DNA of 64,000 nucleotides from Nesterenkonia pannonica (GTDB lineage Bacteria > Actinomycetota > Actinomycetes > Actinomycetales > Micrococcaceae), in assembly GCF_019575955.1 (NCBI RefSeq), contig NZ_CP080575.1, positions 2,108,001-2,172,000 of the forward strand. Direction: 5' to 3'. Positions 20,248-54,257 of this stretch are shown piece after piece (position 1 is the first letter of the stretch; the number at the start of each line of letters is the position of its first letter). Below the pieces are notes generated by a model. The model was given only the letters and a program-made list of their open reading frames with translations, did not search any database and had not been told where the DNA came from. Position numbers and translations under genes: made by a program.

Positions 20248-21624
20248 ATGAACCTGTACCGTCGACTCGACGCTCACCTGCACGAGCACTCCGAGACCGG
20301 AGAGCCCGTTCCCGGCACCCTCAGCGGGGCCCGGATCTTCATGATCTGGCTCGCCGCCAACCTCGTCGTCACCACCATGCTCACCGGCACGCTCTTCGTG
20401 CCGGGAGTGGACTACTCCACCGCTGCGCTCGGCATCCTCGTCGGCACGCTGCTGGGTGCCGTCGTGCTCATCACCATCGGCTCCATCGGCACCCGCACCG
20501 GGCTGGCCACCATGGCCCTGACCCGTGCGCCCTTCGGACTGCGCGGATCCATGCTTCCGGTGGCGGCCAACATCATCATCCTCATGGGCTGGTCCTGGGT
20601 GCAGGCCATGCTGGTAAGCATCACCGTCGACCACCTCATCTCCACCTACACGGGCGCCGCCTCGAACCCCATCCTCTGGTCAGTGATCTGCCAGACCATC
20701 GTCGTCGCCCTCGCCATCTTCGGCCACCAGGGCATCGCCAAGATCGAGCCGTGGCTGGCCGCGCTGATCCTGGGCCTGATGGGCTTCGTCTTCTACACCG
20801 CCTTCTCCGCATTCAGCCCAGCAGATTTCCAGAACCTGCCCACGGACCCGGCACTCGGCCTCGACGGGGTCGTGGTCCTGGACATCGTCATCTACACGGC
20901 CATCTCGTGGACCGTCCTCTCCGCAGACCTGAACCGATTCGCCCGCTCGCCGCGCGCAGGAGCCGTCGGCGCCGGCCTCGGATACACCGCCTCGACGACT
21001 CTGGCCATGCTCATGGGCCTCACCGGCATCTCCTACTTCCTGGCCCGCGGCCAGGGCGCAGCAGAGTTTGACCCGACGCCGTTCGTCGACAGCTTCGGCA
21101 CCGTCGTGGCCCTGGTCATCTTCCTCTCCGTGATGGCCACGAACACGATGGTCGTCTACGGCATGACCACCTCCGCCGTCACCTCCCACACCGGGCGCCA
21201 CCTGCGGCTGCGCTTCCTCCCCACCGCACTGGGACTGGGCCTGATCAGCATCATCGGCGCCACCTGGATGGCGCTGCTGGACGCGTTCGCGGACTTCCTC
21301 GCCCTGATCGGCGCGTTCTTCATCCCGGTGTTCGCCATCATGCTCGTCGACTACTTCATCATCCGCCGCGCCAGCTACGGCCGTGACATCCTCAAGGCGC
21401 GCGACGGCGCCTACTGGTTCTCCGGCGGGGTCAACTGGGCGGCCATCGTCGTGTGGGTCATCGGGGCCGCAGCCACCTACATCCTGGGCTACATCTGGGT
21501 GCCCCCGGCCGTCGGATCCGCGATCCCCGCCTTCGTCCTCTCCGCGGTGCTCTACCTCGCGCTCTCCTGGAACAGGCGTGCCAAGCGAGCCGACACCGGC
21601 GAATCTCTGGAAGCGTCTCGCTGA
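20248..21624 (+). CDS. NCS1-family purine/cytosine permease (CodB-like)
   Basis: Intact 458-residue nucleobase:cation symporter-1 with about twelve helices. Typical features are the early GxxxG region (LSGARIFMIWLAANLVVT), RAPFGLRGSMLP in the position of the NCS1 'RxxFG' motif, and the ADLNRFARSPRAG loop after helix 6. Substrates of the family include cytosine, purines, allantoin, hydantoins and thiamin precursors. It is the first gene of the cluster containing the Lrp-type regulator and ureohydrolase and could import a nitrogen-rich substrate for that pathway; this is inference from position. Confidence 0.9.
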   Translation: MNLYRRLDAHLHEHSETGEPVPGTLSGARIFMIWLAANLVVTTMLTGTLFVPGVDYSTAALGILVGTLLGAVVLITIGSIGTRTGLATMALTRAPFGLRGSMLPVAANIIILMGWSWVQAMLVSITVDHLISTYTGAASNPILWSVICQTIVVALAIFGHQGIAKIEPWLAALILGLMGFVFYTAFSAFSPADFQNLPTDPALGLDGVVVLDIVIYTAISWTVLSADLNRFARSPRAGAVGAGLGYTASTTLAMLMGLTGISYFLARGQGAAEFDPTPFVDSFGTVVALVIFLSVMATNTMVVYGMTTSAVTSHTGRHLRLRFLPTALGLGLISIIGATWMALLDAFADFLALIGAFFIPVFAIMLVDYFIIRRASYGRDILKARDGAYWFSGGVNWAAIVVWVIGAAATYILGYIWVPPAVGSAIPAFVLSAVLYLALSWNRRAKRADTGESLEASR

Positions 21625-21626
21625 CG

Positions 21627-22556
21627 ATGCGCGAGGGCTCCCGGAACAGCTCATCCACGCCCTGCAGCACAACGGCCGGGCCACCTACAACGAGCTTGCG
21701 ACAGAGCTGGGAGCCCCGCGCAACCTTGTCTCCAGCACCGTCCGACGGCTGCTGCAGACTGGGCAGATCCGCATCGTGGCCACCGCGGCGCACGGCGCCA
21801 CCGGCCACCACGTGCTGGCGCACGTCGCGCTGCGGTGCGCGCCGAACGCGGAGGACGCGATCGGGCACCTCATGGACCAGGAGGACATTCCCTGGTCTCT
21901 GCGGTCGCAAGCACCCACGACCTCGTCCTCGAAGTCAGGGCGCCCACCGTGGAGGCGCTGCACAGCGCGCTGCGCAGAGTCCGATCGCACCCCAGCGTCC
22001 GCACGGCAGCCGTGACCCTCTACCACCACGTGGTCAAGAGCGCCTTCAGCACCCACCCTCCGGGGACGGGAGACTCGATGCGACGGACACCGCGCTCATC
22101 GAGCTGCTGCGCACCGACGGCAGGATGAGCTTCAACGACCTCGCCGCGACGGTCCACCTCTCCCCACCTCCGTCAGAAGCCGGGTCCGGCGCATGCAGGA
22201 GGCGGGTCTGCTGCGGATCAGCGCGCAGATCCCCACACGCCCCAGAGCGGCCGCGTGAAGGTGGGAGTGGGCCTGTGCCTCACGGGAGAGGACCACGACG
22301 CGGTGGCCGCGGCCGTGCAGATGCCGGAGGTCGAGTTCGCCGCCGAATCCCTCGGCCGGTTCGACCTCATTGCGACGCTGAACTCTTCCGACCCCGCGGA
22401 GATCGCGGGACGATTGGAGCAGCTGCGCTCACTGCCCGAGGTCCACCACATGGAGACCTGGATGCATGTCAGGACCCATAAGGAGGACTACTCCCAGCCG
22501 ATGACCACCCCCACCCGCCCCCACCGACAGACCCTGATGGAGAGCAGCACCCGATG
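21627..22556 (+). CDS. Double-module Lrp/AsnC-family regulator (frameshifted)
   Basis: Transcription regulator with two tandem Lrp units. Module 1: [38 protein letters not shown] then a ligand-binding RAM-like half. Module 2: [41 protein letters not shown] followed by a second RAM domain ([17 protein letters not shown]...FDLIATL). The ATG at 21627 is chosen because restoring one C after MREGS joins it to the HTH. Other frame changes are near 21895, 22070, 22165 and 22235. The stop overlaps the ureohydrolase ATG (22554), so it is likely a local amino-acid-responsive regulator. Confidence 0.8.
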
Positions 22557-23571
22557 ACACAGACACCCTCCGGCACCACGCCGACAGGACCCCGCGACAG
22601 CAGCGCGACGCCTCGCTACGCAGGCCAGGCCACCTACGCGCTCCTGCCCTCCCTGGACCAGGTGGGCACCGCCGACGTCGCCGTCGCCGGCATCCCGTTC
22701 GACTCCGGGGTGAGCTACCGTCCAGGGGCTCGGTTCGGGCCCAGCCACGTGCGGGAGGCCTCCCGGCTCCTGCGCCCCTACAACCCAGCCCAGGACGTCT
22801 CCCCTTCGCCGTGCAGCAGGTCGCGGACGCCGGCGACATCGTGGCCAACCCTTCGACCTCGACGAGGCGATTCAGCAGGTCTACCAGGGCGCAGCGGACC
22901 TGCTGCAGCGCGCGGGACGCTTCGTCATGATCGGCGGGGACCACACCGTCGCCTACCCGCTGCTGAAAGCGATGTACGAGAAGCACGGGCCCATCGCCGT
23001 GCTGCACGCGGACGCCCACCTGGACACCTGGGACACCTACTTCGGCGCCCCCATCACCCACGGCACCCCGTTCCGCCGCGCCAGTGAGGACGGGTTCATC
23101 GACCTCACCGCCAGTGCGCACCTGGGCATCCGCGGGCCCCTGTACGGCAAGGGGACCTGGAGGACGACGCCACGCTCGGCTTCGAGATCACCACCACCGA
23201 GTTCATCGAGGAGCACGGGGTCCACGCGGCCCTGGAGCGGCTGCGGGCTCGACTCGGGGACAGGCCGGTGTACATCTCGATCGACATCGACGTGCTGGAC
23301 CCCGCCCACGCCCCCGGCACAGGGACCCCGAAGCCGGAGGCATGACCAGCCGCGAGCTGCTGCGGATCATCCGCGGCCTCGCGGACCTCAACATCGTGGG
23401 CGCCGACGTCGTCGAGGTCTCCCCGCCTATGACCACGCGCAGCTGACCGCGGTGGCGGCATCGCACGTCGTCTACGAGCTCGTCTCAGCCATGGGAAGAC
23501 CGGCCCACACAGCGCTCCCGCAGCAGCGGCCTCCTCACCCGAAGGCCCGAACGCATGAGCGCCCCGGCTGA
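22554..23571 (+). CDS. Ureohydrolase: agmatinase/guanidinobutyrase-type (frameshifted)
   Basis: Arginase-superfamily Mn-dependent hydrolase that releases urea from a guanidino compound. Metal ligands appear in order: [18 protein letters not shown] and SIDIDVLDP followed by [12 protein letters not shown]. Joined length is about 335 residues. Frame changes are near 22800, 22852, 23150, 23335 and 23427. The family motif cannot separate agmatine from 4-guanidinobutyrate. Its neighbours are a flavin amino-acid monooxygenase and an amidase, which would supply 4-guanidinobutyrate from arginine, so guanidinobutyrase is my preferred reading. Confidence 0.85.
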
Positions 23572-23955
23572 GCCGAGCGTCACCGACGTCGAGGCCGCGG
23601 CGGAACGCATCGTCGATGCCTTCGCCGCCAACGATGGGCCTCGCTACTTCGCCGGCTTTGCACCCGAGGCAACGTTTATCTTCCATCCTGAGCCGCAGCG
23701 GCTCCCCAGCCGCGACGCCTACGAGCAGCTCTGGAACAGCTGGAGGGCGGACGGCTGGCGCGTCGTCTCCTGCACCTCGACTGACCGTCACGTGCAGACC
23801 TTCGCCGGGGCGCGGTCTTCTCGCACACCGTCCACACCGCCGTCGAGACCCCACAGGGCCCAGAGTCCTACCGTGAGCGCGAGACCATCGTCTTCGCGCT
23901 GCAGGACGGCAGACTGCTCGCCGTTCACGAGCACCTCTCAGCCCACGATGCCTGA
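23555..23955 (+). CDS. SnoaL/NTF2-like small protein (one frameshift)
   Basis: About 133-residue alpha+beta cone-fold protein. Helical start [21 protein letters not shown], then [16 protein letters not shown] and [21 protein letters not shown], and strands ending [18 protein letters not shown]: the layout of nuclear-transport-factor-2/SnoaL-like domains. A frame change near 23812 separates the last three strands. The ATG at 23555 overlaps the 3' end of the ureohydrolase gene. The exact role is unknown; members of this fold act as small isomerases, hydrolases or binding proteins. Confidence 0.75.
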
Positions 23956-23976
23956 GCGACGAGCAGGAGCGGCAGC

Positions 23977-24646
23977 ATAGGCACAGAGATTCTCCATGAT
24001 CTGAGCCATCCGATCCGTGACTCCATGATGACGTACCCGGGAGACCCCGCCGTCGCCGTCGCACCCGCGCTGAGGATCCCCACCGACGGCGTGGAGGTCG
24101 CCCGTCTCACCCTCGGCTCCCACAGCGGAACTCACGTCGACGCCCCAGCGCACACCGTTGCGGGCGGCCCCACGATGGCCGACGTGGACCTGCACGAGCT
24201 GTTCGGGAGGCCGCCGTGCTGCGGGCACCCCATGCAGGCGAGGGAGAGCCGTACGGCCTGGACGACCTGGAGTTCGACGGGTCCTCGGTGCCTGACCGTC
24301 TGCCGTCGATCGTCCTGGTCGACACCGGATGGGCGCCGAACTTCGGCAGCCCGCGCGCCCTGAACCATCCGTGGCTGCTTCCCCGCGCTGCTGATGAGCT
24401 GTGGAGCCGCGGCATGCGCGTCCTCGGAGTGGACACGCTCAGTCCCGACCCCACGGACGACCCGACGTCTGCCTTCCCTGTCCATGAGGTGGTGCTCGGA
24501 CGGGACGGGCTCATCGTGGAGAACCTGCGCGGCCTCGAGCACCTCCCTCGTACGTGAAGGTGGGCATCTTCCCGCTGCGCTATGAGGGCGACGGCGCTCC
24601 CGTCCGAGCCGTCGCCTTCACTCATGACCCACGCACGGCTGGCTAG
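23977..24646 (+). CDS. Cyclase-family metal-dependent hydrolase (kynurenine formamidase-like; frameshifted)
   Basis: Cyclase superfamily (KynB, isatin hydrolase relatives) that hydrolyses amide or lactam bonds. Early LHDLSHPIRDSMMTYPGDP and the metal motif SHSGTHVDAPAH (H-x-G-T-H-x-D-x-P) are clear; VDTGW, LGVDTLSPDP and VHEVVLGRDGLIVENL follow as in the family. Frame changes are near 24212 and 24550. No ATG or GTG precedes the conserved start in frame. ATA at 23977 lies 7 bases after AGGAG, so the true start may be an ATG miscalled there. Substrate is unknown. Confidence 0.82.
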
Positions 24647-24694
24647 AGTGATGAGCATCCGCACCGCACGCCGCTTCGCCCCCGAGGAGCCCCT

Positions 24695-26357
24695 TTGACG
24701 ACTCAGCCGCTCACGATGCTCAGCCCGGACTTTCCTTCAGCTATGACCACTACCTGGAGGATCCGCACGGGCTCGGCGCCGTCCCCGAGAGCGCACGAGG
24801 CACAGAGGTGGCCGTGATCGGAGCGGGGCCGCGGGACTGGTGGCCGCCTTCGAACTGATGAGGATGGGGCTGAAGCCGGTCATCTACGAGGCTAAGCAGC
24901 ATCGGCGGACGGCTGAAGACCGAGAGGTTCGACGCCGCCCCAGGTGGCGGCGGACCTCGGCGGCATGCGCTTCCCCACATCCGGGCGCGCCTTCTACCAC
25001 TACGTGGACATGCTGGGCCTGGAGACCCGCCCCTTCCCGAACCCGCTCTCGGACGCGACCCCTCCACGGTCATCGACCTCAAGGGGAGCCGATTTGGGCC
25101 CGAACCGCCGACGATCTCCCGGAGTTCTACCGCGAGATGGCCGAAGGGTGGAAGAGCGCCCTGCAGCAGGACGCTCAGCTCCATGCTGTGCAGGACGCGA
25201 TCCGCGCTCGAGACGTCGACACGCTGAAGCGCCTCTGGAACGACCTGGTGGAACGACTCGACGACCAGTCCTTCTACGGATTCCTGGCCGGATCCGACGC
25301 CTTTCGGCAACTGAGCCACGAGCACCTCGAAACGTTCGGGCAGGTGGGATTCGGCACCGGAGGCTGGGACACCGACTTCACCAACTCCATTCTGGAAGTC
25401 CTGCGCGTGGTGTTCACCGACGCCGACGACAACCACCGCAGCATCGTCGGCGGCGCACAGCGCCTCCCCGTCGAGCTCTGGCACCACACGCCTGAGGACC
25501 TCGTGCACTGGCCGAAGGGGACCTCACTCGCCAGCCTGCACGGCGGCGCGCCCCGAGGCGCAGTGACAGGAATCCACCGCGGCCAGCGTGCCGACCTTCC
25601 GCCGCGGCATCAGCATCACCGAGAAGTGGGGCAGAACCAGAGAGTTCGCGGCCGCGGTGGTCACGTGCCAGTCATGGCTGCTGTCCTCACGGATCGACAC
25701 CGACGAGGCGCTCTTCACCCCGTCGATGTGGCGCGCCATCGAGAAGAGCCACTACATGCTCTCCTCCAAGACGTTCGTGCTGGTGGACCGTCCCTTCTGG
25801 CGGGACACCGACCCTGAGACGGGCCAGCCGGTGATGTCGATGACGCTGACCGACCGGCTCCCCGCGCCACCTACCTCCTGGACGAGGGCGGAGACGAGGG
25901 CCCCGCATCGATCCTGCTCTCCTACACGTGGAACGACGACGCGCTGAAGTGGCTGGCGCTCGACGCATCGGAGCGCACGCGCCTCATGCTCCACTCTCTG
26001 CACAAGATCTACCCGACCATCGACATCGGGGCGCACATCATCGGTGAGCCGCTCACCGTCTCGTGGGAGGCCGACCCCAACTTCATGGGGGCGTTCAAGA
26101 ACAACCTGCCCGGCCACTACCGCTACCAGGAGCTGCTGTTCGGGCACTTCGTCCAGGATGGGTTCCCGGAGCACCAGCGCGGCCTGTTCCTGGTAAGCGA
26201 CGACATCTCATTCACCGCCTACTGGGCCGAAGGGGCGGTGACCACAGCACTGAATGCCGTGTGGGGCGTGGTGCACCACCTCGGCGGCGCAAGCCATCCC
26301 GACAACCCGGGCCCGGGCGACATGTGGTCGCACCTGGCTCCGATCCGCCTGAGCTGA
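24695..26357 (+). CDS. Flavin amino-acid 2-monooxygenase/amine oxidase (DavB/IaaM type; frameshifted)
   Basis: FAD-dependent enzyme of about 550 residues, the size of lysine 2-monooxygenase (DavB) and tryptophan 2-monooxygenase (IaaM), which turn an L-amino acid into the one-carbon-shorter amide plus CO2. The dinucleotide motif VAVIGAGPAGLVAAFELMRMG, SSIGGRLKTERFD and LGGMRFP are typical; the C-terminal FAD region is FLVSDDISFTAYWAEGAVTTALNAVW. Frame changes occur near 24830, 24893, 24940, 25062, 25580 and 25862. The TTG at 24695 follows GAGGAG. Next to a nitrilase-type amidase and a ureohydrolase, arginine is the most economical substrate. Confidence 0.82.
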
Positions 26358-26373
26358 AGGAGCCGAACCCCCA

Positions 26374-27162
26374 ATGACACGCATCGCCGTCCTGCAAGCC
26401 CAAGCCGAGCCCCTGAGCATCGACGCCAACCTCTCGGCCGTGCAGCGCGCGGCAGCCGACGCGAAGCAGGCTAGGCGCCGAGCTGCTGGTGACGCCGGAG
26501 CTGTTCGTCACCGGCTACGCACCAGCCCGTATCCGTGCCGAACTCGGCCAGGAGCCCGTGCACGCAGCGGAGGATGCCCTGCGCCGCATCGCCCGGGAGC
26601 ACAGCATCAGCATCGTCGCGAGCCTGCCCGGGCGGGAGAGCCCCGAGGAGCGGGGCATCACTGCCCTGCTGATCGCAGACGACGGGGCGGTGCTCGCGCG
26701 CTACCAGAAGGTGCAGCTGTTCGGACCCGAGGAGAAGGCCTCCTTCGTCGCAGGCGAGGAGCCCCTGCCGTGGTGGAGCACCTGGGCCGCAGACTCGGTC
26801 TGCTCGTCTGCTACGACGTGGAGTTCCCGAAATGGTCCGAGCCGCGGCCGCGCAGAGCGCCGACCTGCTCCTCGTTCCCACCGCGCTGGCGCAGGAGCCT
26901 ACCGTGCAGGACATCCTGCTTCCGCCCGCGCCCTCGAAAGCCGCGTGGCACTGGCGTATGCGAACCACTGCGGCACCGAGGACGGGCTCACGTTCGACGG
27001 CGGCAGCGTCGTGCTCGACATCAGCGGGCATCCTCTGGCGGCCGCCGCAGCCGAGCCTGACCTGCTGATCGTTGACGTGCTTAAGCACCCTCAGAAGCAG
27101 GCCCTGAGGGCCCCTGGTACCGGCAGGACCGTCGGGCCCACCTGCACCGCCGCTGGCTCTGA
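26374..27162 (+). CDS. Nitrilase-superfamily amidase (frameshifted)
   Basis: Carbon-nitrogen hydrolase with the Glu-Lys-Cys triad: E42 in LVTPELF, Lys in RYQKVQLFG (about residue 115) and Cys in LLVCYDVEFPE (about residue 150). Length is about 262 residues. It starts 16 bp after the flavin monooxygenase; in Pseudomonas putida the same pair (DavB, DavA) converts lysine to 5-aminovalerate through an amide. Here it would hydrolyse 4-guanidinobutyramide. Frame changes are near 26469 (GCTAGGC where GCC-GGC is expected), 26775, 26830, 26925 and 27105. The end is set by RRAHLHRRWL-stop in the third frame. Confidence 0.83.
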
Positions 27163-27227
27163 GAGCGGCATCGGGGCTGTCCGGGCGGGCGAAAATGTAA
27201 ACAGTTCATTAAATGCGCAGTCCGCTA

Positions 27228-27279
27228 TTGACAGGCATGTGTGACGCACACGACACTCTTAACCAAATCGCATTTGGTT
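27228..27279 (+). promoter_or_regulatory. Promoter with two inverted repeats upstream of the second permease unit
   Basis: TTGACA at 27228-27233 is a good -35 box; the -10 is not clear (GACACT at 18-base spacing is weak). Two inverted repeats follow: GTGTG-ACG-CACAC (27239-27251) and the perfect AACCAAAT-CGC-ATTTGGTT (27261-27279). The second has 8-base arms and would sit at or just after the transcription start. This is a candidate operator for a dimeric regulator of the small membrane protein, permease and dehydrogenase genes. Confidence 0.55.
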
Positions 27280-27345
27280 TCTGAGGCAGGGACCATGCGT
27301 GCTCCGGGCACCTCCGGGGCTGTCACTAGCGAAGGGGAACACACC

Positions 27346-27576
27346 ATGAGCGAACCGCGTGCCGAAGCGGCCCCGCAGGCGAATCCATTCGTCGACACGC
27401 TCCTGCAGAAGGGAATGGAGCCCGTCGTCGCCGAAGAGCTCGAGCGTCGCATCCAGATCATCGAAAGCGACGAAGCCGACGACGCAGCGCACAGGGCGCT
27501 CACTCCCGTCGACATCGCCGTGTACCTTCTCGTCTGCGCCGGAATCTGCGCCGTCGCCCTGGGAGTCCTCGCATGA
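27346..27576 (+). CDS. Small single-helix membrane protein coupled to NCS1 permease
   Basis: 76-residue protein with an amphipathic acidic N-terminal half (LLQKGMEPVVAEELERRIQIIE) and one C-terminal transmembrane helix (DIAVYLLVCAGICAVALGVL). ATG 27346 follows GAAGGGGA. Its stop overlaps the permease ATG in ATGA (27573-27576), so the two proteins are probably made in stoichiometric amounts. I know of no family name. A small accessory subunit of the permease is a reasonable inference. Confidence 0.72.
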   Translation: MSEPRAEAAPQANPFVDTLLQKGMEPVVAEELERRIQIIESDEADDAAHRALTPVDIAVYLLVCAGICAVALGVLA

Positions 27577-29023
27577 GCGCCAAGGCTTCGAGCACAGAGA
27601 CAGACCGCCTCCTCAGCGAAGAGCACAGGTTCGGCACCTTCCCCTCCTGAAGAAGGAGCGCGTGTGGTCATTCGCCGACTTCACGTGGGTCAACACCTCC
27701 CTCGCCATCGCCACCTGGGCGTTCATCGTCGGAGGCTCCACCGCACTGATGGTCGGATTCCGCGACGGCGTGCTCGCCATGATCATCGGCAACGCGATCG
27801 GCCTGTCCTTCATGGTCCTGGCGGCCACCGCCGCCTCCCAGCGCTACGGCTCGGAACAGTACACGATGCTGCGCGGGGCGTTCGGAGTCGTGGGCGTCGG
27901 CGTCCTCGTCTTCACCATCGTGCTGATCACCGAGATGGGCTGGTCCTCACTCCTGGCCGTGATGGCTTACCGTGCCGCCAGCCAGATCACCGGGGAGGTG
28001 ACGGGGCGGAGCTCTCCCAATACGGCCCGCTCGTCACCGTGGGAGCGCTGGTCGCCATCGGCCTGGCCTGGTTCATCCTCTCCCGCGGCCCCATCACCAT
28101 CGGGCGTCTCAACGCCATCGTCGCCCCCGGTCTGGCGCTCATCGTCGCTTAAGCATGATGATCTTCCTCGTCATGAACACGTCATGGGACGCGCTCAACT
28201 CAGCTGCACCCATCGCGCCGTTCGAGGACGACACGCTGAACTTCATGATCGCCGTGGAGTTCAACATCGGCGTCGGGGTCTCCTGGTTCCCATCATGGGC
28301 TCCCTCGCCCGCATGGCCAAGAGCCGACGAGCCGCCCTCTGGCCCTCATTCCTCGGACTGTTCCTCGCCACCGTGCTGGCCCAGACCGTCGGCCTCGCCG
28401 CGGCACTGACCCTGGGCGAGTCCGACCCGACCGTGTGGATGGTGCCCTTCGGCGGACCCCTGCTCGGCATCGGGATCCTGGCCTTCATCGCCTTCGCGAA
28501 CATCACCTCGATGTCATCGATCGTCTACTCCACAGTTCTCGCGATCCGACAGTCATCCGGGCAGGCACTGGCGAAGGTGCCGTGGAAGGGCCTCAGCGCG
28601 CTCTTCTTCATACTCCCCGCGATCATGACGTTCTTCCCGCAGTTCATGTACGAGCAGTTCATGCTGTTCGTCACCTACTCCGGAGCGTTCCTCACCGCAG
28701 TGTGCGGCGTTGCGCTGGCCGACTACTTCATTCTGCGCAGACAGCGCATGAACCTGCGTGAGCTGCACCTCGGGCAGCAGGGAACCCTCTACGCGTACAA
28801 GGGCGGGGTCAACATCGCCGGACTGGCCAGCGTCGCCGTCGGCGCCGTCCTGTACGTCTTCCTCTACGACCCGGTGAGCCTCGAGACGAACGCGGCCTTC
28901 TCCTACGTGACTGCCTCCATTCCCACCGTGCTCATCGCGGCCATCTCCTACCTCGTCCTCAGCAAAGTCCTCTACGGCCGAGGAACCTCGAAAGAGGCCG
29001 CACCGAAAGTGAGCGCCTCATGA
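27573..29023 (+). CDS. NCS1-family permease, second copy (frameshifted)
   Basis: Purine/cytosine permease-family transporter of about 485 residues. Typical start WSFADFTWVNTSLAIATWAFIVGG, then RGAFGVVGVG in the RxxFG position, and C-terminal YLVLSKVLYGR. Frame changes near 27640, 28003, 28148 (GCTTAAGC where GCC-AGC fits) and 28290 break it. Translation is coupled to the preceding 76-residue membrane protein and the stop overlaps the dehydrogenase start (ATGA). Divergent from the first copy at 20248; the substrate is unknown. Confidence 0.87.
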
Positions 29024-30111
29024 TCAGCGCACGAGCAGCGTTCCACCCCTCCCCGCGGCCCGCGAGCTGACCGTGGACACCGTGGAGGTCGCTGAGCCGG
29101 GTCCGGGCCTCGTCCGGGTGCGGCTGGGCGCCTCCGGGGTGTGCGGCTCCGACCGGCACGTCCTGGACGGGGAGTGGAGCATGCCCTCGCCCACCGTCCT
29201 GGGGCACGAGGGGCCGGCACGGTCGAAAGCATGGGTGAGGGGGTCACCGACCTCGAAGAGGGCGACCACGTGATCATCACGTGGTTTCAGCCGTGCCTTC
29301 GCTGCAGCTCCTGCGCCGAGGGCCGCACATGGGTGTGCGACAACGCCTCCAGTGAGGGCTGCTTACTCCCCGACGGAAGCACCCCCTGCGCAAGGATGAC
29401 CGAGAGGCCTTCCCTACCTCGCCGTGGGCTCCATGGCGGAGTACGCCGTCGTCCCCGTCACGCTCTGGTCCCGATCAGCCGTGAGGTGCCGTTCGACGTC
29501 GCCGCGCTCATCGGCTGCTCCGTGGTCACAGGGTTCGGCGCAGTGGTCAACGACGCGGGCGTGCAGGCAGGACGCTCAGCACTGGTGATCGGGGCGGGCG
29601 GCGTGGGGCTCTCGCTCATCATGAGCCTGGTCGCCGCGGGCGCGGGCAAGATCATCGCAGCCGACATCAATCCGGAGGCCCTCGCGCTGGCGGAGGAGTT
29701 CGGGGCCACCCACACTGTGCTGTCGAATGGTGACCTGCCGGACACGGTGCGGGAGATCACGGGCCACGGCGTCGACTACGCCTTCGAAGCGATCGGCCTA
29801 CCGGAGACCATCGGCATCATGCCTGACTGCGTTCGCCGCGGCGGAAAAGCGGTGATCGTCGGGCTCCCACCTGAGGACGCTCCGGTGTCGATCGATGCGC
29901 TCGCACTGGCCGAGCAGGGAAAGACGCTGATCGGCTCCAACTATGGCAGCACGGTGCCGGCCCGAGACTTCCGCTGCTGGCGCAGCTGTACCTCAGCGGC
30001 TTACTGCCGATCGATCGGCTGATCACGCGTCGCTTCGCTCTCGAGGACGTCAATGAGGCGTTCTCCCTGATGCGCGCCGGGGCCGCCGGACGCAGCGTGA
30101 TCGTCTACTGA
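29020..30111 (+). CDS. Zinc-dependent medium-chain alcohol dehydrogenase (frameshifted)
   Basis: About 360-residue MDR-family NAD(P) dehydrogenase. Catalytic zinc site GVCGSDRH and VLGHEGAG, structural zinc segment PCLRCSSCAEGRTWVC, and Rossmann motif VIGAGGVGLSLIMSL are present. The ATG at 29020 overlaps the permease stop. Frame changes lie near 29055, 29213, 29390, 29455 and 29970. Class III-like layout. It could oxidise an aldehyde or alcohol intermediate in the same pathway, but no specific substrate follows from the sequence. Confidence 0.85.
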
Positions 30112-30169
30112 TGAGCTGAGACGCCGGGGACGCGGCAGGGCATTCCGGCCTGCATGAAAGGATCGGACC

Positions 30170-30818
30170 ATGCCGCGTCCCCGTCAGAACATCCTCTCCG
30201 CACGCAAGATCGCACGCGCGGCGCTGACGATGACCGAACGTGAGCAGGACTTCACCATTCCGGGTATCGCAAAGGCTCTGGGGGTGAACCCTCATCCCTT
30301 TACCACCACGTCCCAGGAGGGCGCCAGGAGATCATCGCGCTGATGCGCAGGGAGCTCTATTCGGCCATCGACCTGGATCTCTCGCCGACCGCTCCCGCCC
30401 CTGGCAGGAGCGCCTGGCAGCGTGGATACGAGAGTTCAGGGACGCGTCAGCATCGGTTCCCGGTTCGATTCCCCTGTTTGTGCGCGCGCCGGTGGACGAC
30501 GACGCCACCCTGCAGATCTACGAGGACCTCTTCGGGATTCTTCGCGACGGAGGCGTTCCGGCTGACCGGTGGCCCGCAGCGGCAGCCATGCTCGACGCCA
30601 TCGTTCTGGGCTCCGCCTTGGACGAATCGAGCCCTCTGCCTCTGTGGCGCCCGCCGGGCACCGACGGCTACGCACTGATCCGCTCCGTGACGGAGACGGC
30701 AGAGCGCCCCGCGAAGGGCTCGAGCTCGCGCTGCAGGCAGCGGTCGCGGCCGTGGCCGCTTTGGCTGAGGACGCCGGAGACGCCCCGGCGCCGATCAGCT
30801 GCCGCGTTCGGCCTGACG
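30170..30818 (+). CDS. TetR-family regulator (frameshifted)
   Basis: N-terminal HTH: RQNILSARKIARAALTMTE, then FTIPGIAKALGVNPSSLYHHV after a frame correction near 30300. The ligand domain has FVRAPVDDDATLQIYEDLFGILRDGG and LDAIVLGSALDE. Further frame changes are near 30405 and 30715. The 3' end is uncertain because it runs into the convergent APC permease gene; a stop after DQLPRSA in the other frame would end at 30818. ATG 30170 has AAAGGA upstream. It probably regulates the adjoining permease/dehydrogenase unit. Confidence 0.75.
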
Positions 30819-32251
30819 CTTGTCCAGTGCCTCCAGGAGTAAGCGCTCCGCATCGGCACCTCCTTGATGCCGCCCGGCAGCCGCAGGGCGAAAATGATGC
30901 CCAGGGTCCACCATGCCAGGAAGATGATCCACGGCTCGAGCGTCAGGAACGCCGGAAGGCCGGGCAGGTAGAGAGCCAGCATCACTGCAGTGGAGATCAC
31001 GGCGACGACGCCGACGGCCATTCCCAGCTTCCGACCGCCGACCCTCAGGGGACGGTCCATGCTCGGCTCGCGGCGACGCAGAATGACGAAGGTGATGGAG
31101 ACCATCAGGAAGGTGATGACGACGGCCGGTCCGGTGGCGTCGACCGCCCAGTCCAGCATGGCCAGGCCGAAGAACGGGGCGATGGTGGTCAGCCCGCCGA
31201 GGAAGAGCAGCGCATTGACAGGCGTTCCGTGCTTCGGGTGCATGCGGCCGAACCAGGCTTAGCACCATCCCCGTTGGACAGCGCCCACAGCAGGCGCGAA
31301 GCTCCGACGAGGAATGCGTTCCAAGACGTGATGACGTAAGCGAGCCCGCCGGCGATGACCAGCTGGCCCCAGAATTCGTGTCCGAGCATGTACGCCATGG
31401 CGTCGCCCGTGGCGAGGTCGAAGCGTCCGAGCTCGTCTGCGGGCGCGCCCAGCGCAGTGGTGCTGACGATGACGATGTAGAAGACGGTGGCGGCCACCAC
31501 AGAGACGACGATCAGCTGGCCCATCTTCCGGGGTGCCAGGTTCGCCTCCTCCGCGGACTGAGGAATCACGTCGAAGCCAACGAACAGGAAGGGAACCACC
31601 ACGAGCACCGCGATGATGCCACCCGCCGCCGGTGAACATGGGTTCGATGTACTCGGGCTCTCCGCCGAAGAAGGACGCGAAGAGCATGACGACGGCGACG
31701 ACCAGCAGGAATATGACCGCTGAGGACTGCAGCAGGCCTCGACTGGCGGATGCCCTGAATGTTGAGGAACGTCAGCAGCACAGAGGTCCCGGCGCCCAGC
31801 AGCGCCCACGTCAGGTACACCTCGGTGCCAGCGATCGTGTACATCGGAATCTGCGCCAGATCGGGAACAGGTAGGTGGCCGAACGCGGCACGGCCACCGA
31901 CTGGAACATCGAGACGGTCACGTAGCCGCCGATGATGCCCCACGAGCCCAGCAGCGCCAGCCTGGGGCCCATGCCGCGCAGAAGGTAGTTGTGCTCCCCG
32001 CCCGCGAAGGGCATGGCAGCTGCCAGCTCTGCGTAGACGAGCCCCACCAGGGCCATGATCGCCCCGCCGATGAGGAAAGCGGCGACGGCGCCGCCCACCC
32101 CTGCGTCCTGGATCCAACCGCCGGTCAGGGTGATCCACCCGAAGCCGATCATGGAGCCGAAGCCCAGGAAGAACAGCTCGTACTTGCCCAACGTCTTCCG
32201 GAAAAGGCGATCCGCCCGTCCCTGGTGCTCTGCTGCGGCCTCTGTAGCCAT
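30795..32251 (-). CDS. APC-superfamily amino acid permease (GABA/amine type by context; frameshifted)
   Basis: Twelve-helix amino acid/polyamine transporter of about 485 residues. FFLGFGSMIGFGWITLTGGW is the conserved helix 1 motif, followed by ELAAAMPFAGGEHNYLLRGMGP; FVGFDVIPQSAEEANLAPRKMG is the typical helix 6-7 loop. Frame changes near 31860, 31740, 31630 and 31262. Start ATG 32251. It lies downstream of gabT and gabD on the same strand with a 114-bp gap, so GABA or an arginine-derived amine is the likely cargo; this is inferred from position only. Confidence 0.85.
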
Positions 32252-32364
32252 CAGTGTGATCCTCTCCCTGCGAGTGATGCGTCCCACAGATTCTGAGGCC
32301 ACGAAGGACGCAAGCGCTAATGCGACCGAGCTATCCTACATATGCTTCTGAGGCATCCTTGCAG

Positions 32365-33741
32365 TCAGCTCCAGTCGACGCTGAGGTACTGCGGCTCGGT
32401 GAACTCCTCGATGCCGAACTGCCCTCCCTCGCGGCCGATGCCTGACTGCTTCACACCGCCGAACGGCGCACTCGGGTCCGAGACGATGCCGCGGTTGATC
32501 CCAACCATCCCCGCCTCGAGGCGTTCGCCGATCTGCATGGCCAGCTTCAGGTCGCCCGCGTAGACGTAGGACGCCAGTCCGACGGCGGCGCGGTTGGCCT
32601 CAGCGATGACCTCATCCTCGTCGCGCCACGTGACCAGAGGAGCGACAGGACCGAAGATCTCCTCCCCAGGATGGCTGCGTCTGCGGCGACCCCGGTGAGC
32701 AGCTGGGGCGCCACAAAGGTGGGGCTTACTGACGGCGGCAGCTCAGCCTGAGCGCGCACCTGGGCACCGTCTGCCGCTGCTGCCTCCACCAGGGTGCGGA
32801 TGCCGTCCGCCGCCTTCTCACTGATGACCGGCCCGATCTCCGCACCCTGCGCCGCGTCGCCGACCCGCAGAGCTGCGATGCGTTCGCCGAACTTCGCGCT
32901 GAACTCCTCAGCCACATCCTCGTGGACGTAGAAGCGGTTCGCCGCGGTGCAGGCCTGACCGCCGTTGCGGAACTTCGCCACCATGGCACCAGCCACAGCA
33001 GCGTCGATGTCCGCGTCGGCGGTGACGATGAAGGGGCGTTGCCGCCCAGCTCCATGGACGTGTTGATCACACGCTCGGCGCACTGGCGCAGCAGCACGCT
33101 GCCCACCCCGGTCGAGCCCGTGAAGGAGAGCTTGCGGACCCGGTCATCGGCCAGCCACGCGGAGACGACCCCGCCGCATCAGAGGTCGCTGCCACCTGCA
33201 CGAGACCTTCGGGAGCCCGGCTTCGCGGAGGATCTCAGCGATGGCGAAGGCGGTCAGCGGAGTTTCGGCAGCTAAGCTTGAGCAGCACGGAGCAGCCTGC
33301 GGCCAGCGCCGGACCGATCTTCCTCGTGGCCATCGCGGCGGGGAAGTTCCACGGGGTGATGAGCACGGCCACCCCCACCGGATGCCGGGTCACGACGTTG
33401 CGCACTCCCGGCGGGTGCTTCGGCGTACTGGCCGGGAGTCCGGACAGCCTCTTCGGCGTACCAGCGGAAGAACTCTGCCGCATAGGTGACCTCCGCCGTC
33501 GCGTCGGCCCGCGACTTCCGTTCTCCGCAACAATCAGGTCCCGAAGCCGCTCCGCCTGCGCATGCATGCCGTGGAACGCGGCCATGAGCACCTCCGCACG
33601 GTGACGCGGTGCGGAGGTCCGCCACTGCTCGAAGGCGGCCTGAGCCGCGTCCACCTGAGCCGCGGCCTCGTGGGGCGCGGTGTCGGCGACGGTGCTGATG
33701 GTCTCCCCGGTGGCGGGGTTGGTGACGGTGAGCGTCGTCAT
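32365..33741 (-). CDS. gabD: Succinate-semialdehyde dehydrogenase-type aldehyde dehydrogenase (frameshifted)
   Basis: NAD(P)-dependent ALDH of about 458 residues. Cofactor and catalytic motifs in order: [43 protein letters not shown] (general base Glu) and [13 protein letters not shown] (catalytic Cys). The C-terminal [14 protein letters not shown] segment matches the SSADH subfamily. Frame changes are near 33515, 33430, 33273, 33170, 33045 and 32670; that at 33273 is a GCTAAGC. It follows gabT directly, so succinate semialdehyde is the expected substrate. Confidence 0.88.
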
Positions 33742-33785
33742 GTGCGGTCTCTCTCTGGTCGTAGGAACGAAGCGGTTCGGGCGGC

Positions 33786-35117
33786 TCAGTGTGCGGCAAG
33801 CGCGTCAGTGATGACGCTGAGCCCTTCGCGGAGCAGCTCGTCGCTGATGGTCAGGGGCGGAAGGAGGCGAATCACGTTGCCGTAGGTGCCGCAGGTCAGG
33901 GTGATGACGCCCGCGCTGCGCGCTGCGGCGGCGACGGCGGACGTCAGGGCCGCGTCGGGCTCTCCGGTGCCGGGGTCGACCACTTCGAAGGCGAGCATGG
34001 CGCCGCGGCCGCGGATCTCACCGATGCGGGCGTCCTGCTTCTGGGCGGCGCGCAGGTGCTCCATCGCGATGGCCTCGATGCGAGAGGCCTCCTGGAGCAG
34101 GTCGTCCTGCTCGATGGTCTCGATGGCGCCCAGTGCTGCCGCGCAGGCCACAGGATTGCCGCCGTAGGTGCCGCCCAGGCCGCCGGGGTGCGCGGCGTCC
34201 ATGATGTCCGCGCGCCCGGTGACGGCCGAGAGCGGCATGCCGCCGGCGATTCCTTTGGCGGTGGTGATGACGTCGGGCTGGATGCCCTCGTGCTCGGAGG
34301 CGAACCACTGTCCGGTGCGCGCGAAGCCCGTCTGGATCTCATCGGCGATGAAGACCACGTCGTTGTCGCGGCACCACTGGGTGATGCGCTGAAGGAAGCT
34401 CGGGGCGGGCACGATGAAGCCGCCCTCTCCCTGGATGGGCTCCATGATGACGGCGGCGAGGCTGGATGCTCCGATCTGCTTCTCGAGCTGGTCTATGGCG
34501 CGATCGGCGGCCTGATCTCCGCTGAGTCCGTCCCGGTAGGGGTAGGAGCCCGAAACGCGGTAGATCTCGGAGGCGAAGGGGCCGAAGCTGTGCTTGTAGG
34601 GCATCGACTTCGAGGTGAGAGCCATGGTGAGCGTGGTCCGCCCGTGATAGGCGTGGTCGAAGGCGGCCACTGCCTGCTTGCCGGTGAAGGCGCGGGCGAC
34701 CTTCACCGCGTTCTCCACGGCCTCCGCCCCGGAGTTGAACAGCGCTGTGCGCGTGGGTCCCGGCACCGGCGTGAGCTCTCCGAGCTTTTCGGCGACGGCC
34801 ACGTATCCCTCGTAGGGAGTGACCATGAAGCAGGTGTGCGTGAACTGCTCGACCTGCTCCTGCACGCCTACCACGACCCTGGGCGCAGAGGCGCCGACGG
34901 ACGTCACCGCGATGCCCGAGCCGAGGTCGATCAGCCGGTTGCCGTCGACGTCCTCGACGATGCCGCCCTCTGCGCGCACGGCAAAGGTCTGCATCAGGGA
35001 CGCGACGCCCGCGGGCACGGCGGCCTTCTGGCGGCTGAGGAGCTCGGCGGCCTTGGGGCCGGGGAGGTCGGTGACGAGGCAGCGGGACTGGGGCAGGGGC
35101 GTGGAGGCAGACGTCAT
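33786..35117 (-). CDS. gabT: 4-aminobutyrate aminotransferase
   Basis: Intact 443-residue class III PLP aminotransferase that converts GABA and 2-oxoglutarate to succinate semialdehyde and glutamate. Motifs: [34 protein letters not shown], the Glu/Asp pair EPIQGEGG and [13 protein letters not shown], and the PLP lysine in [16 protein letters not shown] 44-bp gap separates it from gabD, forming gabTD. It is divergent from a LysR regulator with an inverted repeat between them. Confidence 0.94.
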
Positions 35118-35153: not shown

Positions 35154-35190
35154 ATGCCTGATTGGGCGTTTGAGTATACGCTTCAGGCAT
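35154..35190. promoter_or_regulatory. Inverted repeat ATGCCTGA-N21-TCAGGCAT between gabT and lysR
   Basis: Perfect 8-base arms (35154-35161 and 35183-35190) separated by 21 bases in the 71-bp divergent promoter region. The right arm covers the lysR start codon, and TATACG at 35175-35180 could be the lysR -10 box, giving a nearly leaderless message. The arm spacing of about three helix turns fits a LysR tetramer site and autorepression. Confidence 0.55.
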
Positions 35191-36091
35191 GGAACTCCGT
35201 CTGCTCCGCTACTTCGCCGCCGTCGCTGAGCACGGCACCGTCTCTGAGGCCGCGTCGGTCCTGCGGATCAGCCAGCCCTCGCTCTCGCGGCAGATGAAGA
35301 AGCTGGAGCAGGATGTGGGCCTTCAGCTGTTCACACGGGCAGGCACGCGCAACATTCTCACCTCGGAGGGGCGCGAGTTCCTCGGCGCCGCACGGGCTGT
35401 GCTCGCCAAGCAGGCCGAGGCCTCGCAGCTGGCGCAGGTGCTGGCTCAGGGGCAGCTCTCCAGCGTGTCGCTGGCGGCGCCGCGGACCACGCTGATCGAC
35501 ATCGTCGCACCCTTTGTGGCCACTTTCCGCCAGCAGGACCCCGTGCCTGATGTGAGCGAGATCAGCATCGACCCCGACCTGGAGCGATCACTCTCCGAGC
35601 ATGACCTGGTGGTCACCGCCCGCCCCGCATCAGCGCTTCCCACGGGGCTGCCCGCCCAGACGCTTGATCTGGCGCGCCTGCCCGTGTGGGCCTACGTCCC
35701 CGCTCATCACCGGTGGGCAGAGCGTGAGGCCGTCGAGACGGCGGACCTGGCCCAGGAGGTCATCATCACCCCGTCCGGCGAGTTCAGGGCGCGGGAGCTG
35801 CTGGACGCGGCCCTGCAGCTGGAGGGGACAGCGCCGTTGGGCCGCGTGGAGACCAAGCACGGCCGGGTGGCGCAGGCACTAGCGGCTGCGGGCCGGGGCG
35901 TCGCAGTGGTCTCGGACGACGCACACTTCGACCTTCGCCCGCTGCGGCTGCATCACCGGGGCAGCTTACTCACCGTCGGACTCAGCGTCCAGTGGCGCAC
36001 GGACCACCACGCAGCGGAGGCACTGCACGAACTGGCTCTGCGGCTGCGGAGCTTCTGCGGCGAGCGCTACGGGCACACGCTGCCGGACTGA
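35189..36091 (+). CDS. LysR-family regulator of gabTD
   Basis: Intact 300-residue LysR-type protein. The N-terminal winged HTH is textbook: LRYFAAVAEHGTVSEAASVLRISQPSLSRQMKKLEQDVGLQLFTR. The substrate-binding-fold domain occupies residues about 90-290. Divergent from gabT over 71 bp containing the inverted repeat described separately, so it most likely activates gabTD in response to GABA or succinate semialdehyde. The inducer is not visible from sequence. Confidence 0.92.
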   Translation: MELRLLRYFAAVAEHGTVSEAASVLRISQPSLSRQMKKLEQDVGLQLFTRAGTRNILTSEGREFLGAARAVLAKQAEASQLAQVLAQGQLSSVSLAAPRTTLIDIVAPFVATFRQQDPVPDVSEISIDPDLERSLSEHDLVVTARPASALPTGLPAQTLDLARLPVWAYVPAHHRWAEREAVETADLAQEVIITPSGEFRARELLDAALQLEGTAPLGRVETKHGRVAQALAAAGRGVAVVSDDAHFDLRPLRLHHRGSLLTVGLSVQWRTDHHAAEALHELALRLRSFCGERYGHTLPD

Positions 36092-36327
36092 GCCCGGAGC
36101 GGACCAAGGCGGCATCGTCCCGCGTCGTCAGCCCGTTCGGAGGGACGCCGTATATATTGTGCGGTGCACCTGACGCGGCACCGTGCTTCGCTGCAGCGGG
36201 TGCAGGCGCGGCGGCGGCCAGCCTCTCGGCTCACCTAGCGATCTGCACGCCCTACCACCGTTAGGAGGGCCCCGAAGAGAGGCGGGAAGCCGCCGCGCCG
36301 CCTCCGGACGAGCCGATGCTCCGCGGC
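36092..36327. other. Convergent intergenic gap
   Basis: 236 bases between the ends of lysR and dppB. It contains TATATATTGTG at about 36150-36160, a promoter-like AT island that is surprising between convergent genes, and GC-rich short repeats after it. No convincing terminator, RNA gene or coding region was seen. Confidence 0.35.
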
Positions 36328-43056: not shown

Positions 43057-44367
43057 GGTCTTCCTTCACTGGTGCGATGCGAATGATGAATAGGGGTCGG
43101 TGTGCGGTCATCGGGCGCGGAAGGTGCGGTTCCTCTCCTTCCCTGGCTGTCCAGTCCTTCTCCGAGCGCATACGGGTGCACGAAGTTGGGCTCCGTGAGT
43201 CCCTGTCGGCGCATCGCGATGCCGGTCATCGCCTCACGGATGGCCCGGTTGGCCAGCAGCGCGGTGATCTCACCCTTGTCGTCATAGGGCGGGGAGACCT
43301 CCACCACGTCCACGCCGACCACGCCGACCTCCGCGCAGAGGCGCCGCACTGCGGTGAGCACATCGACGCTGGTCAGCCCCGGGCTCTGGGGTCCCGGTGC
43401 CCGGGGCGAAGGCCGGGTCAGCGACGTCGATGTCCAGGGACAGGTACAGGTAGTCCGCCTGGTCGAGAGCTTCGTCCACGGCCCGCTCGAGCACCTCGTA
43501 GAAGCCGCGATGGTTGATCTCCGCCATGAAGTGCGTCCGCATCTCCTGCTCGTCCATCCAGTCGAGCGTCTCCTGGTCCGGCCAGTAGCCGCGCAGCCCC
43601 ACCTGCACGAAGTTCTTGCCGGGGACCGCGCCCGACTCGATGAGCTTGCGCATCGGGGTGCCGTGGGAGGCCAGTGAGCCCGGCATGTCCGTGCCGGTGT
43701 CTGCATGGGCGTCGAAATGGACGATGCCGACCTTGCCGTACCCGTAGTGGTCCGCCACCGCTGTGGCGGCAGGCCAGGTGATGGCGTGGTCGCCGCCCAT
43801 GATGATGGGGATCGCACCGGAGTCGACGATGGTGCCGACGAACTTTCTGATCTCCTCGAACGTGCCCGGGGTGTTGCCCAGCATGATCGGCGAATCCCCG
43901 TAGTCGCACATGTTCAGCTCAGCGAAGGCATCCACATGGGTGTCCAGGGAGAAGTGCGGGCGCGGCCCGTAGCCGCCCTTGTAGTCGCAGGAGCGGATAA
44001 CCATCGGGCCGTGGTTCGTGCCGCTGCGACCGCCTGCAGTGGAGTCCCAGGGCACACCGCAGACCGCGACGTCGATCTCCGCGGCCTTCAGGTCCTCGGG
44101 GGTGAGTGCCACGGGCAGCTTGGCGAAGGTCTGGATGCCGGCGAAGCCTCCTCGCGCTGACGGTTGACGTGGAGAAGGCCGGGCTTGCGGTCCACGTTGT
44201 AGCTGTCCACCGCGCCATGTCCTTCGAGTCCCTCCCAGCCGACGGGGCTGCTCCCAGAACCCTTCAGGCCAAACATCATGGTTGTGGTCGTGGCTGTGAT
44301 CGTGTCCCACGGGCGGGGCCTCCATATCTGCGGTGCTCCGGACAGGCGCCGGAGTGCTGTTGGACAT
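43053..44367 (-). CDS. Ureohydrolase (agmatinase family) with His-rich N-terminus (frameshifted)
   Basis: Arginase-fold hydrolase of about 437 residues, longer than the usual 300-330. The N-terminus holds GHDHSHDHNHDVW, a likely metal-binding tract. Core motifs: MGGDHAITWP, HFDAHADTGT, LSLDIDVADPAFAPGTGTPEPG. Further family features are GGFAGIQTFAKLPVALTPEDL and VCGVPWDSTAGGRSGTNHGP. Frame changes are near 44255, 44150 and 43395. It opens the LacI-controlled operon, 14 bases downstream of a 16-bp operator. Substrate could be agmatine, guanidinobutyrate or guanidinopropionate. Confidence 0.87.
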
Positions 44368-47841: not shown

Positions 47842-47847
47842 GCTAGC

Positions 47848-47862
47848 TGCAACGATGTTGCA
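47848..47862. promoter_or_regulatory. Palindrome TGCAACGATGTTGCA, copy 2
   Basis: Same operator-like sequence as at 46956, differing only at one central base. It begins 6 bases after the methyltransferase stop and actually covers the probable ATG (47855) of the FecCD permease gene. A bound repressor would block both transcription start and, if leaderless, the start codon region. Confidence 0.65.
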
Positions 47863-48943: not shown

Positions 48944-48972
48944 CCTCCCACCCCTTTGCCTGAGAGCCCACC

Positions 48973-49991: not shown

Positions 49992-49995
<4 letters not shown>
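48973..49995 (+). CDS. FecB-type ABC substrate-binding lipoprotein
   Basis: Binding protein of 340 residues with signal peptide and lipobox MTSCGG, an acidic linker and the class III (helical-backbone) fold: RTIENCGQSVTFDAEPERIILLETAPVTILDGLGLMD marks the first lobe (ENCGQSVTFDAEPERIILLE). Ligand could be a siderophore, cobalamin, haem or F420-0, as actinobacterial relatives of this organisation are varied. Around 49528-49555 two compensating indels shift a dozen residues out of frame; the corrected reading is EIFGAEQEAAE. The ATPase ATG overlaps its stop. Confidence 0.85.
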
Positions 49996-50753
<758 letters not shown>

Positions 50754-54253: not shown

Positions 54254-54257
54254 CCGC

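Follow-up and report, generated by a model that had tools for sequence, protein, structure and literature searches.

Arginine 2-monooxygenase activity has been known for decades, and the literature that we searched ties few genes to it. The degradation of L-arginine by this enzyme (EC 1.13.12.1) is listed as ARGDEG-V-PWY in a table of PMC9441920 (papers are cited here by PMC number, each in excerpt). The pair of an arginine monooxygenase and a 4-guanidinobutyramide hydrolase is established in the azalomycin producers (PMC5082578), in agreement with an earlier sequence-only reading of the DNA described here, which had taken the chemistry to be established in Streptomyces and other actinobacteria. 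We describe a 64,000-nucleotide stretch of the Nesterenkonia pannonica genome (contig NZ_CP080575.1, positions 2,108,001 to 2,172,000; "the window"), in which genes for a ureohydrolase (UH), a flavin amino-acid monooxygenase (FMO) and a nitrilase-superfamily amidase (AMD) lie on the plus strand. Judging from the sequence comparisons below, these genes very probably form an L-arginine 2-monooxygenase operon, with arginine as the best-supported substrate. The pathway chemistry is already known, and the locus is a well-resolved further case of it; the gene cluster is not described in the literature that we searched by titles and the starts of abstracts. The present analysis contributes an assignment at the level of genes together with a co-occurrence test in the genus, a signature that sets the monooxygenase apart from lysine-type enzymes, and a candidate substrate for an amidase of known crystal structure.

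In the proposed route, FMO would oxidatively decarboxylate L-arginine to 4-guanidinobutyramide, AMD would hydrolyse this amide to 4-guanidinobutyrate and ammonia, and UH would split 4-guanidinobutyrate into 4-aminobutyrate (GABA) and urea. A convergent unit encoding the aminotransferase GabT and a succinate semialdehyde dehydrogenase (SSADH)-type enzyme could carry GABA to succinate, and a urease at the right end of the window could split the urea. Each enzyme would act on the substrate named for it, the plus-strand genes would be read as one transcript, and the metabolites would flow along this route in the cell. The observations reported below are of gene content, order and synteny, of co-occurrence, of pocket residues and of the separation of FMO from the clade of AIU 813 and lysine-type enzymes.

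Like ARGDEG-V-PWY, the locus brings together a candidate monooxygenase, 4-guanidinobutyramide hydrolase and guanidinobutyrase, with putative substrates; unlike it, the window adds a SnoaL-like open reading frame (ORF), a PF04199 hydrolase and NCS1 permeases, and its urease and urea transporter genes are about 30-35 kb from the cluster. The azalomycin-producing Streptomyces, compared here by description and not by sequence, carry out the same two reactions as proposed for FMO and AMD, but their product primes a polyketide, whereas the ureohydrolase of the window would make the route catabolic (PMC5082578, PMC10322714).

Gene layout and an intact syntenic copy

The window genome (G000; G, L and f numbers denote our genomes, loci and families) is 2.7 Mb, is rich in frameshifts, with genes interrupted by indels, and has an estimated completeness of 62%. 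Most of the cluster genes are split by assembly frameshifts, and the plus-strand block is intact in a syntenic relative, G013 (locus L009). The cluster and its flanks contain the following features.

20248..21624, plus strand: NCS1-type permease, first gene of the syntenic block; 86% identical to L009 3206-4582, which has PF02133
21638..22533, plus strand: tandem Lrp/AsnC-type regulator, frameshifted, putative cluster regulator; pieces match the L009 regulator, which has AsnC domains
22554..23493, plus strand: UH, ureohydrolase, proposed 4-guanidinobutyrase, in several frames; pieces 70-83% identical to the G013 UH; PF00491 (piece 22927-23571)
23588..23943, plus strand: SnoaL-like ORF, in two frames; PF13474; a relative lies near UH in L128 and L129
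23998..24548, plus strand: PF04199-type metal-dependent hydrolase, frameshifted; pieces 44-51% identical to an L128 protein with PF04199
about 24701..26357, plus strand: FMO, proposed L-arginine 2-monooxygenase, pieces in three frames; matches the L009 FMO
26374..about 27159, plus strand: AMD, nitrilase-superfamily amidase, proposed 4-guanidinobutyramide amidohydrolase, frameshifted; PF00795
27641..28981, plus strand: second NCS1-type permease, frameshifted; pieces 69-77% identical to L129 8646-10106; PF02133
29141..30022, plus strand: zinc-type alcohol dehydrogenase; PF00107, PF08240
31189..32302, minus strand: APC-type permease pieces, possible GABA/amino-acid permease; PF13520/PF00324 in 31189-31809, with an adjoining ORF at 31811-32302
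about 32368..33756, minus strand: SSADH-type aldehyde dehydrogenase, frameshifted; PF00171 in two pieces; pieces 37-56% identical to the L128 dehydrogenase
33786..35117, minus strand: GabT, GABA aminotransferase, intact; TIGR00700 at 614 bits (cut-off 506.65)
35183..36121, plus strand: LysR regulator divergent from gabT; PF00126, PF03466; 53% identity to the LysR protein next to the L128 gabT

All of the genes named by the sequence-only reading are present in the order that it gave, with one correction: the APC permease, the SSADH-type dehydrogenase and GabT are encoded on the minus strand, so that UH, FMO and AMD on the plus strand face them as one of two convergent units. The 16 bp that it placed between monooxygenase and amidase is confirmed (the FMO stop ends at 26357 and AMD starts at 26374). 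It was silent on the SnoaL-like ORF and the PF04199-type hydrolase between UH and FMO, and on the NCS1 permease and zinc alcohol dehydrogenase between AMD and the minus-strand genes.

In L009, an NCS1 permease, a tandem Lrp/AsnC regulator, an aldehyde dehydrogenase, UH, FMO and AMD follow one another, all unbroken; UH and FMO are separated by 66 bp, FMO and AMD by 4 bp. Because the permease, regulator, UH, FMO and AMD stand in identical order in G013, their arrangement is more than chance. The L009 aldehyde dehydrogenase occupies the interval between regulator and UH, where the window has no such gene; its best NCBIfam model is SSADH, below the cut-off. The SnoaL/PF04199 pair of the window is missing from L009. 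NCS1 permeases are also found near UH in L010, L012, L128 and L129, and a regulator related to the Lrp/AsnC protein of the window stands divergently beside FMO/UH in L010, L012, L031 and L033.

Over the whole window and on both strands, GCCGGC was counted 42 times where relatives lead one to expect 197, and GTAAGC 29 times where 2.5 would be expected; certain G/C runs are scarce as well. The pattern resembles a systematic base-calling error, possibly where a GCCGGC site is modified, and it may explain some of the frameshifts and odd residues.

The monooxygenase and its substrate pocket

The L009 FMO has a PF01593 domain (159.5 bits). In a phmmer search of the PDB, its top matches were 3WE0/5YB6-8, the L-amino acid oxidase/monooxygenase of Pseudomonas sp. 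AIU 813 (744 bits), with the tryptophan monooxygenase 4IV9 next (189.5 bits); no NCBIfam model scored above its cut-off for FMO. Membership of the same superfamily as 4IV9 is what might suggest a tryptophan 2-monooxygenase of the IaaM type. That identity is extremely unlikely given the 744 bits to a basic amino-acid enzyme, the retention of Asp238, and a partner amidase that belongs to PF00795 and not to PF01425, a distinction that tells lysine from tryptophan enzymes (PMC12462448). According to the same source, family members that act on lysine are prone to being annotated wrongly as tryptophan enzymes.

In AIU 813, Asp238 contacts the charged end of the Lys, Orn and Arg side chains, and the wild-type enzyme monooxygenates all three, converting Arg to 4-guanidinobutanamide (PMC5832979). 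The G013 FMO is about 57% identical to AIU 813 and keeps Arg102, Trp235, Asp238, Tyr416, Trp418, Phe473 and Trp516. It differs from AIU 813 in its partner ureohydrolase and at three positions, where Cys254, Gln258 and Ala515 are replaced by Ala, His and Gly in the intact orthologue. A residue table made from 113 loci and AIU 813 has Asp238 in all 114 rows. Ala254/His258/Gly515 is found in 104 of the 113 loci, Cys/Gln/Ala in AIU 813 and five loci, and other combinations in four. These 113 loci, which include near-duplicates such as L014/L028, L017/L030 and L015/L032, come from 116 (L009-L126 minus L025 and L026), after L010, L019 and L124 were dropped for having no single stretch longer than 500 residues. 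From the six rows that carry the Cys/Gln/Ala triplet, we infer that it marks lysine enzymes. The FMO pieces of the window have Asp238 (in GGWDTDF), Ala254, His258 and Tyr515, and thus do not match this triplet.

The window FMO is too broken for a tree, and its L009 orthologue was placed in its stead. In a tree of 41 rows, AIU 813 and eight other rows, lysine-type enzymes of Nesterenkonia among them, formed a clade with 100/100 support, and every Ala-His-Gly row fell outside it. A predicted structure of the intact orthologue L027 with 12 relatives reached a mean predicted local distance difference test score (pLDDT) of only 40.3.

Co-occurrence within Nesterenkonia

The genus set consisted of 30 genomes, in which the arginine class was assigned by FMO identity of at least 76% (for the window genome, by its pieces) and not in every case by the signature. 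UH was found in 17 of the 17 genomes with an arginine-type FMO, G745 being counted on a 129-residue piece and the window genome on pieces, and in 1 of the 13 without (G005; Fisher p = 1.5e-7). AMD, at 48% identity or more, was likewise present in 17/17 against 1/13 (G008; Fisher p = 1.5e-7). Both tests are uncorrected for ancestry. Arginine, the substrate proposed from the sequence alone, is therefore supported by Asp238, by a signature that lies outside the AIU 813 clade and by the co-occurrence of UH and AMD with FMO. The sequence-only reading had also proposed checking whether related genomes keep the four-enzyme set together. UH and AMD are kept with FMO; GabT was found in 12/17 genomes with the arginine-type FMO and 6/13 without, which is no specific co-conservation (p = 0.26).

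These counts bear on the closest rival substrate, lysine. A DavB-DavA-like lysine 2-monooxygenase system would pass through 5-aminovaleramide and 5-aminovalerate, GabT would serve as the 5-aminovalerate transaminase, and UH would be a bystander. Such a system would be in keeping with the shared fold and the 56-60% identity of FMO to lysine-type enzymes, with the higher kcat/Km of AIU 813 for Lys than for Arg (PMC5832979) and with the nearby GabT/SSADH genes. The genus, however, has separate FMOs, mostly with lysine-type residues, that come with a more distant amidase (34-44% identical to the AMDs). Among seven lysine-type loci, including L019, which is too broken for a residue reading, an amidase is near in 7/7 and UH in 0/7. 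One of the lysine-type loci, L118, has GabT directly upstream. Finally, UH tracks the arginine-type FMO and not the lysine-type one (4/8 genomes with the latter against 14/22 without; p = 0.68). We therefore regard lysine as an unlikely substrate of the window enzyme.

In L118 itself, the lysine-type FMO is preceded by GabT at 80 bp and followed by an amidase at 18 bp; this is probably a DavT-DavB-DavA cluster in the same genus.

Linkage of FMO and UH beyond the genus

The sequence-only reading had named a ureohydrolase that prefers agmatine and is not co-conserved with the monooxygenase as grounds for giving up the arginine assignment. On co-conservation, the genus counts show the opposite, and UH was also found genome-wide in 39 of 40 FMO genomes (in that of L043 as a 129-residue piece), Sinomonas humi being without it. 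These 40 genomes were drawn from 80 FMO loci, themselves 80 of 260 relatives, and four of them are also in the genus set. The E cut-offs of the UH searches differ, being 1e-30 for this set and for a sample of the order, and 1e-80 for the phylum.

In the order sample (297 genomes), UH of at least 50% identity was found in 26 of the 28 genomes with FMO and in 53 of the 269 without; G089 and G219 were excluded from the FMO class by the signature, and G105, G133, G175 and others were classed without a residue reading. Families f6, f15 and f19 often have UH without FMO, which makes adjacency more telling than presence. In 16 of the 28 FMO genomes, from four families, the FMO and UH genes are at most 5 kb apart: 6/9 in f7 (G024, G105, G119, G133, G161 and G175), 7/7 in f14 (G032, G050, G066, G096, G110, G166 and G194), 2/2 in f17 (G068 and G220, 2-4 kb apart) and 1/10 in f1 (G000, the window genome). 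When loci on the tree are labelled by whether UH is near, the label switches at least five times across well-supported branches, and the link has therefore been repeatedly made or lost.

Around the 104 signature loci, an AMD was found within about 8 kb in 77, an APC permease in 76, a PucR-type regulator in 71 and UH in 20; these counts are lower bounds from loci of unequal length. Arthrobacter-type loci share a core of AMD, a divergent PucR regulator, an APC permease and FMO, with UH elsewhere in the genome. Kocuria palustris (L105) has GabT, AMD, an APC permease, FMO and UH in one stretch. Across the phylum (396 genomes), FMO was found in 16, of which 11 belong to a single genus (f21/g95, with genomes of 6-10 Mb); all 11 have UH, either on a different contig or at a distance of over 1 Mb, and the three f21 genomes that were read all have the FMO signature and an amidase upstream. 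The three-residue signature, together with ureohydrolase linkage, gives a testable rule for separating arginine from lysine enzymes across actinobacteria.

The amidase

Over the matched part, the window AMD is 51% identical to the L009 AMD and 48% identical to the crystallised aliphatic amidase of Nesterenkonia sp. AN1 (3HKX, 4IZS). The AN1 amidase is a near-twin (98.5% identical) of the AMD of G012 (L013), which is separated from an arginine-type FMO by 81 bp and has UH at a distance of 4.5 kb. The AN1 enzyme is described as active on short-chain amides (PMC3968332), and the mutant 4IZS has butyramide bound (PMC6214922). The molecule 4-guanidinobutyramide is butyramide with a guanidino end. 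Given the near-identity of the AN1 amidase to an AMD that adjoins FMO, 4-guanidinobutyramide may be its natural substrate.

We lean, with slightly more than even confidence, towards a broader proposition in three joint parts: that Ala254/His258/Gly515 denotes a widespread actinobacterial arginine 2-monooxygenase type separable from the lysine type, that the AN1 amidase is its 4-guanidinobutyramide amidase, and that the route in the window is part of a guanidino-nitrogen island ending in urease, so that the genes of one locus could release all of the nitrogen of arginine.

The ureohydrolase

The best PDB match of the L009 UH is 3NIO, the guanidinobutyrase GbuA (259 bits), followed by proclavaminate amidinohydrolase and guanidinopropionase, and its genome context points to a guanidino acid as substrate. 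A zinc-dependent guanidinobutyrase is known from Arthrobacter sp. KUJ 8602 (cited in PMC11271267); Arthrobacter genomes carry UH orthologues that are about 60% identical, KUJ 8602 itself being known here by description. In G012 and G018, a related UH occurs with an aldehyde dehydrogenase, a LysR regulator, GabT and a second SSADH-like dehydrogenase. This G018/G012 cluster spans L128 6051-12503 and L129 4338-15463, with no FMO within the fetched stretch.

In Arthrobacter globiformis, UH adjoins a thiamine pyrophosphate (TPP) enzyme whose best NCBIfam model is a hypothetical protein and whose second-best is ketoarginine decarboxylase, at 318.5 of the 500 bits required. With such an enzyme next to it, UH could have a part in more than a single arginine route.

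An NCS1 permease, a SnoaL-like protein and a PF04199 hydrolase recur near UH in Nesterenkonia (window 20248-24548, L128 2755-5208, L129 1041-3599). This trio could possibly take up a cyclic guanidino compound or a lactam and open it.

Weighing the arginine assignment

Several observations weigh against arginine as the substrate. AIU 813 has kcat/Km values of 200 (Orn), 74 (Lys) and 24 (Arg) per s per mM (PMC5832979); because Orn and Lys are both used better than Arg, Asp238 alone is no proof of arginine. FMO has Ala at position 254, where changes of the AIU 813 Cys shift oxidase against monooxygenase activity. Position 515 of the window FMO is Tyr and not the Gly of the signature. This residue is doubtful because of the systematic base-call errors, although its triplet (within GCCTAC) is not among the clearly enriched error products. 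Midpoint rooting of the tree puts three f21 rows and L111 with the long-branched L119 across the root, so that the Ala-His-Gly rows do not appear as a single clade. UH is common in genomes without FMO (53/269 in the order sample) and near FMO in only 20/104 signature loci, and L120, which belongs to the AIU 813 clade and is not among the seven lysine-type loci, lies 1.4 kb from a distantly related ureohydrolase (42%). In NCBIfam, UH is labelled an agmatinase (TIGR01230 at 238.6 bits, over a cut-off of 174.3), and in 28 of 29 UH relatives a 12-residue motif has Tyr at the position of GbuA Met161. With Tyr in place of Met161 and an agmatinase label, the substrate of UH is not fixed by sequence alone. 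On the GABA side, beyond the lack of specific co-conservation in the genus, GabT had no match at E <= 1e-80 in 5 of the 17 genus genomes with the arginine-type FMO, and none at that threshold in G013.

The GABA half of the pathway, SSADH and GabT, is thus present in the window as the sequence-only reading had it, but on the other strand and not specifically co-conserved with FMO. The name SSADH is itself proposed, from PF00171 and from relatives that score below the NCBIfam SSADH cut-offs; the L128 dehydrogenase, for example, has SSADH as its best model at 574.5 bits, under the cut-off of 646.35.

The kinetic constants raise the possibility that FMO is a 2-monooxygenase of ornithine, the best AIU 813 substrate by kcat/Km (PMC5832979), or of another basic amino acid, with ornithine going to 4-aminobutyramide and then GABA. 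This would leave UH unexplained despite its 17/17 co-occurrence, and we consider it very unlikely.

Position 254 raises a different possibility, an arginine oxidase that would make 2-ketoarginine and H2O2 from Arg, with guanidinobutyrate arising by decarboxylation and oxidation. In AIU 813, Cys254 sets the balance between oxidase and monooxygenase, and C254I loses monooxygenase activity (PMC5832979). Ala at this balance-setting residue would be compatible with an oxidase, as would the A. globiformis UH that adjoins a TPP enzyme with a below-cut-off ketoarginine decarboxylase model. An oxidase route, however, would make the amidase superfluous, yet AMD is present in 17/17 genus genomes with the arginine-type FMO and lies no more than about 8 kb from FMO in 77/104 signature loci. 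An oxidase is thus quite unlikely, and arginine 2-monooxygenase remains our preferred assignment for FMO.

The right-hand part of the window

To the right of the cluster, the window contains a second ureohydrolase (UH2), an importer and urea genes.

43134..44367, minus strand: UH2, second long ureohydrolase with an N-terminal extension; pieces 78-86% identical to L009 17411-18679
47027..50747, plus strand: methyltransferase and FecCD-type ABC importer; matches L127 4266-7966, with Pfam domains there in part and relatives in L131
57121..61958, minus strand: urea ABC transporter (Urt), frameshifted; matches L127/L136
62237..64000, plus strand: urease gamma, beta and the start of alpha, cut by the window end; matches L136, with NCBIfam gamma, beta and alpha there

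Counterparts of UH2, the importer, a FUR-family regulator, Urt and urease lie in the same stretch of G013, and the order of Urt and urease is shared. In L127/L136, UrtA, UrtC and UrtD pass their NCBIfam cut-offs and UrtE falls just under (284.0 against 285.8). With a urea transporter and a urease in the same region, there is a possible sink for the urea that UH would make.

The L009 orthologue of UH2 is 422 amino acids long and has a His-rich N-terminal extension. Its best PDB match is 7ESR/7OI1 (191 bits), listed as "probable agmatinase 2", followed by 9FEK; we take 7ESR/7OI1 to be the guanidine hydrolase GdmH. In both the window and L009, UH2 adjoins solute-binding, MFS and peptide-type ABC genes.

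In G013, the FecCD importer and methyltransferase lie close to UH2, and in N. cremea (L131 7901-11582) they follow UH immediately; the importer is on opposite strands in the window and G013. That it carries metal for a ureohydrolase or urease is a guess. Between this importer and the urea transporter lies the FUR-family regulator (53984-54286; L127 9278-9781, with a run of histidines in L127).

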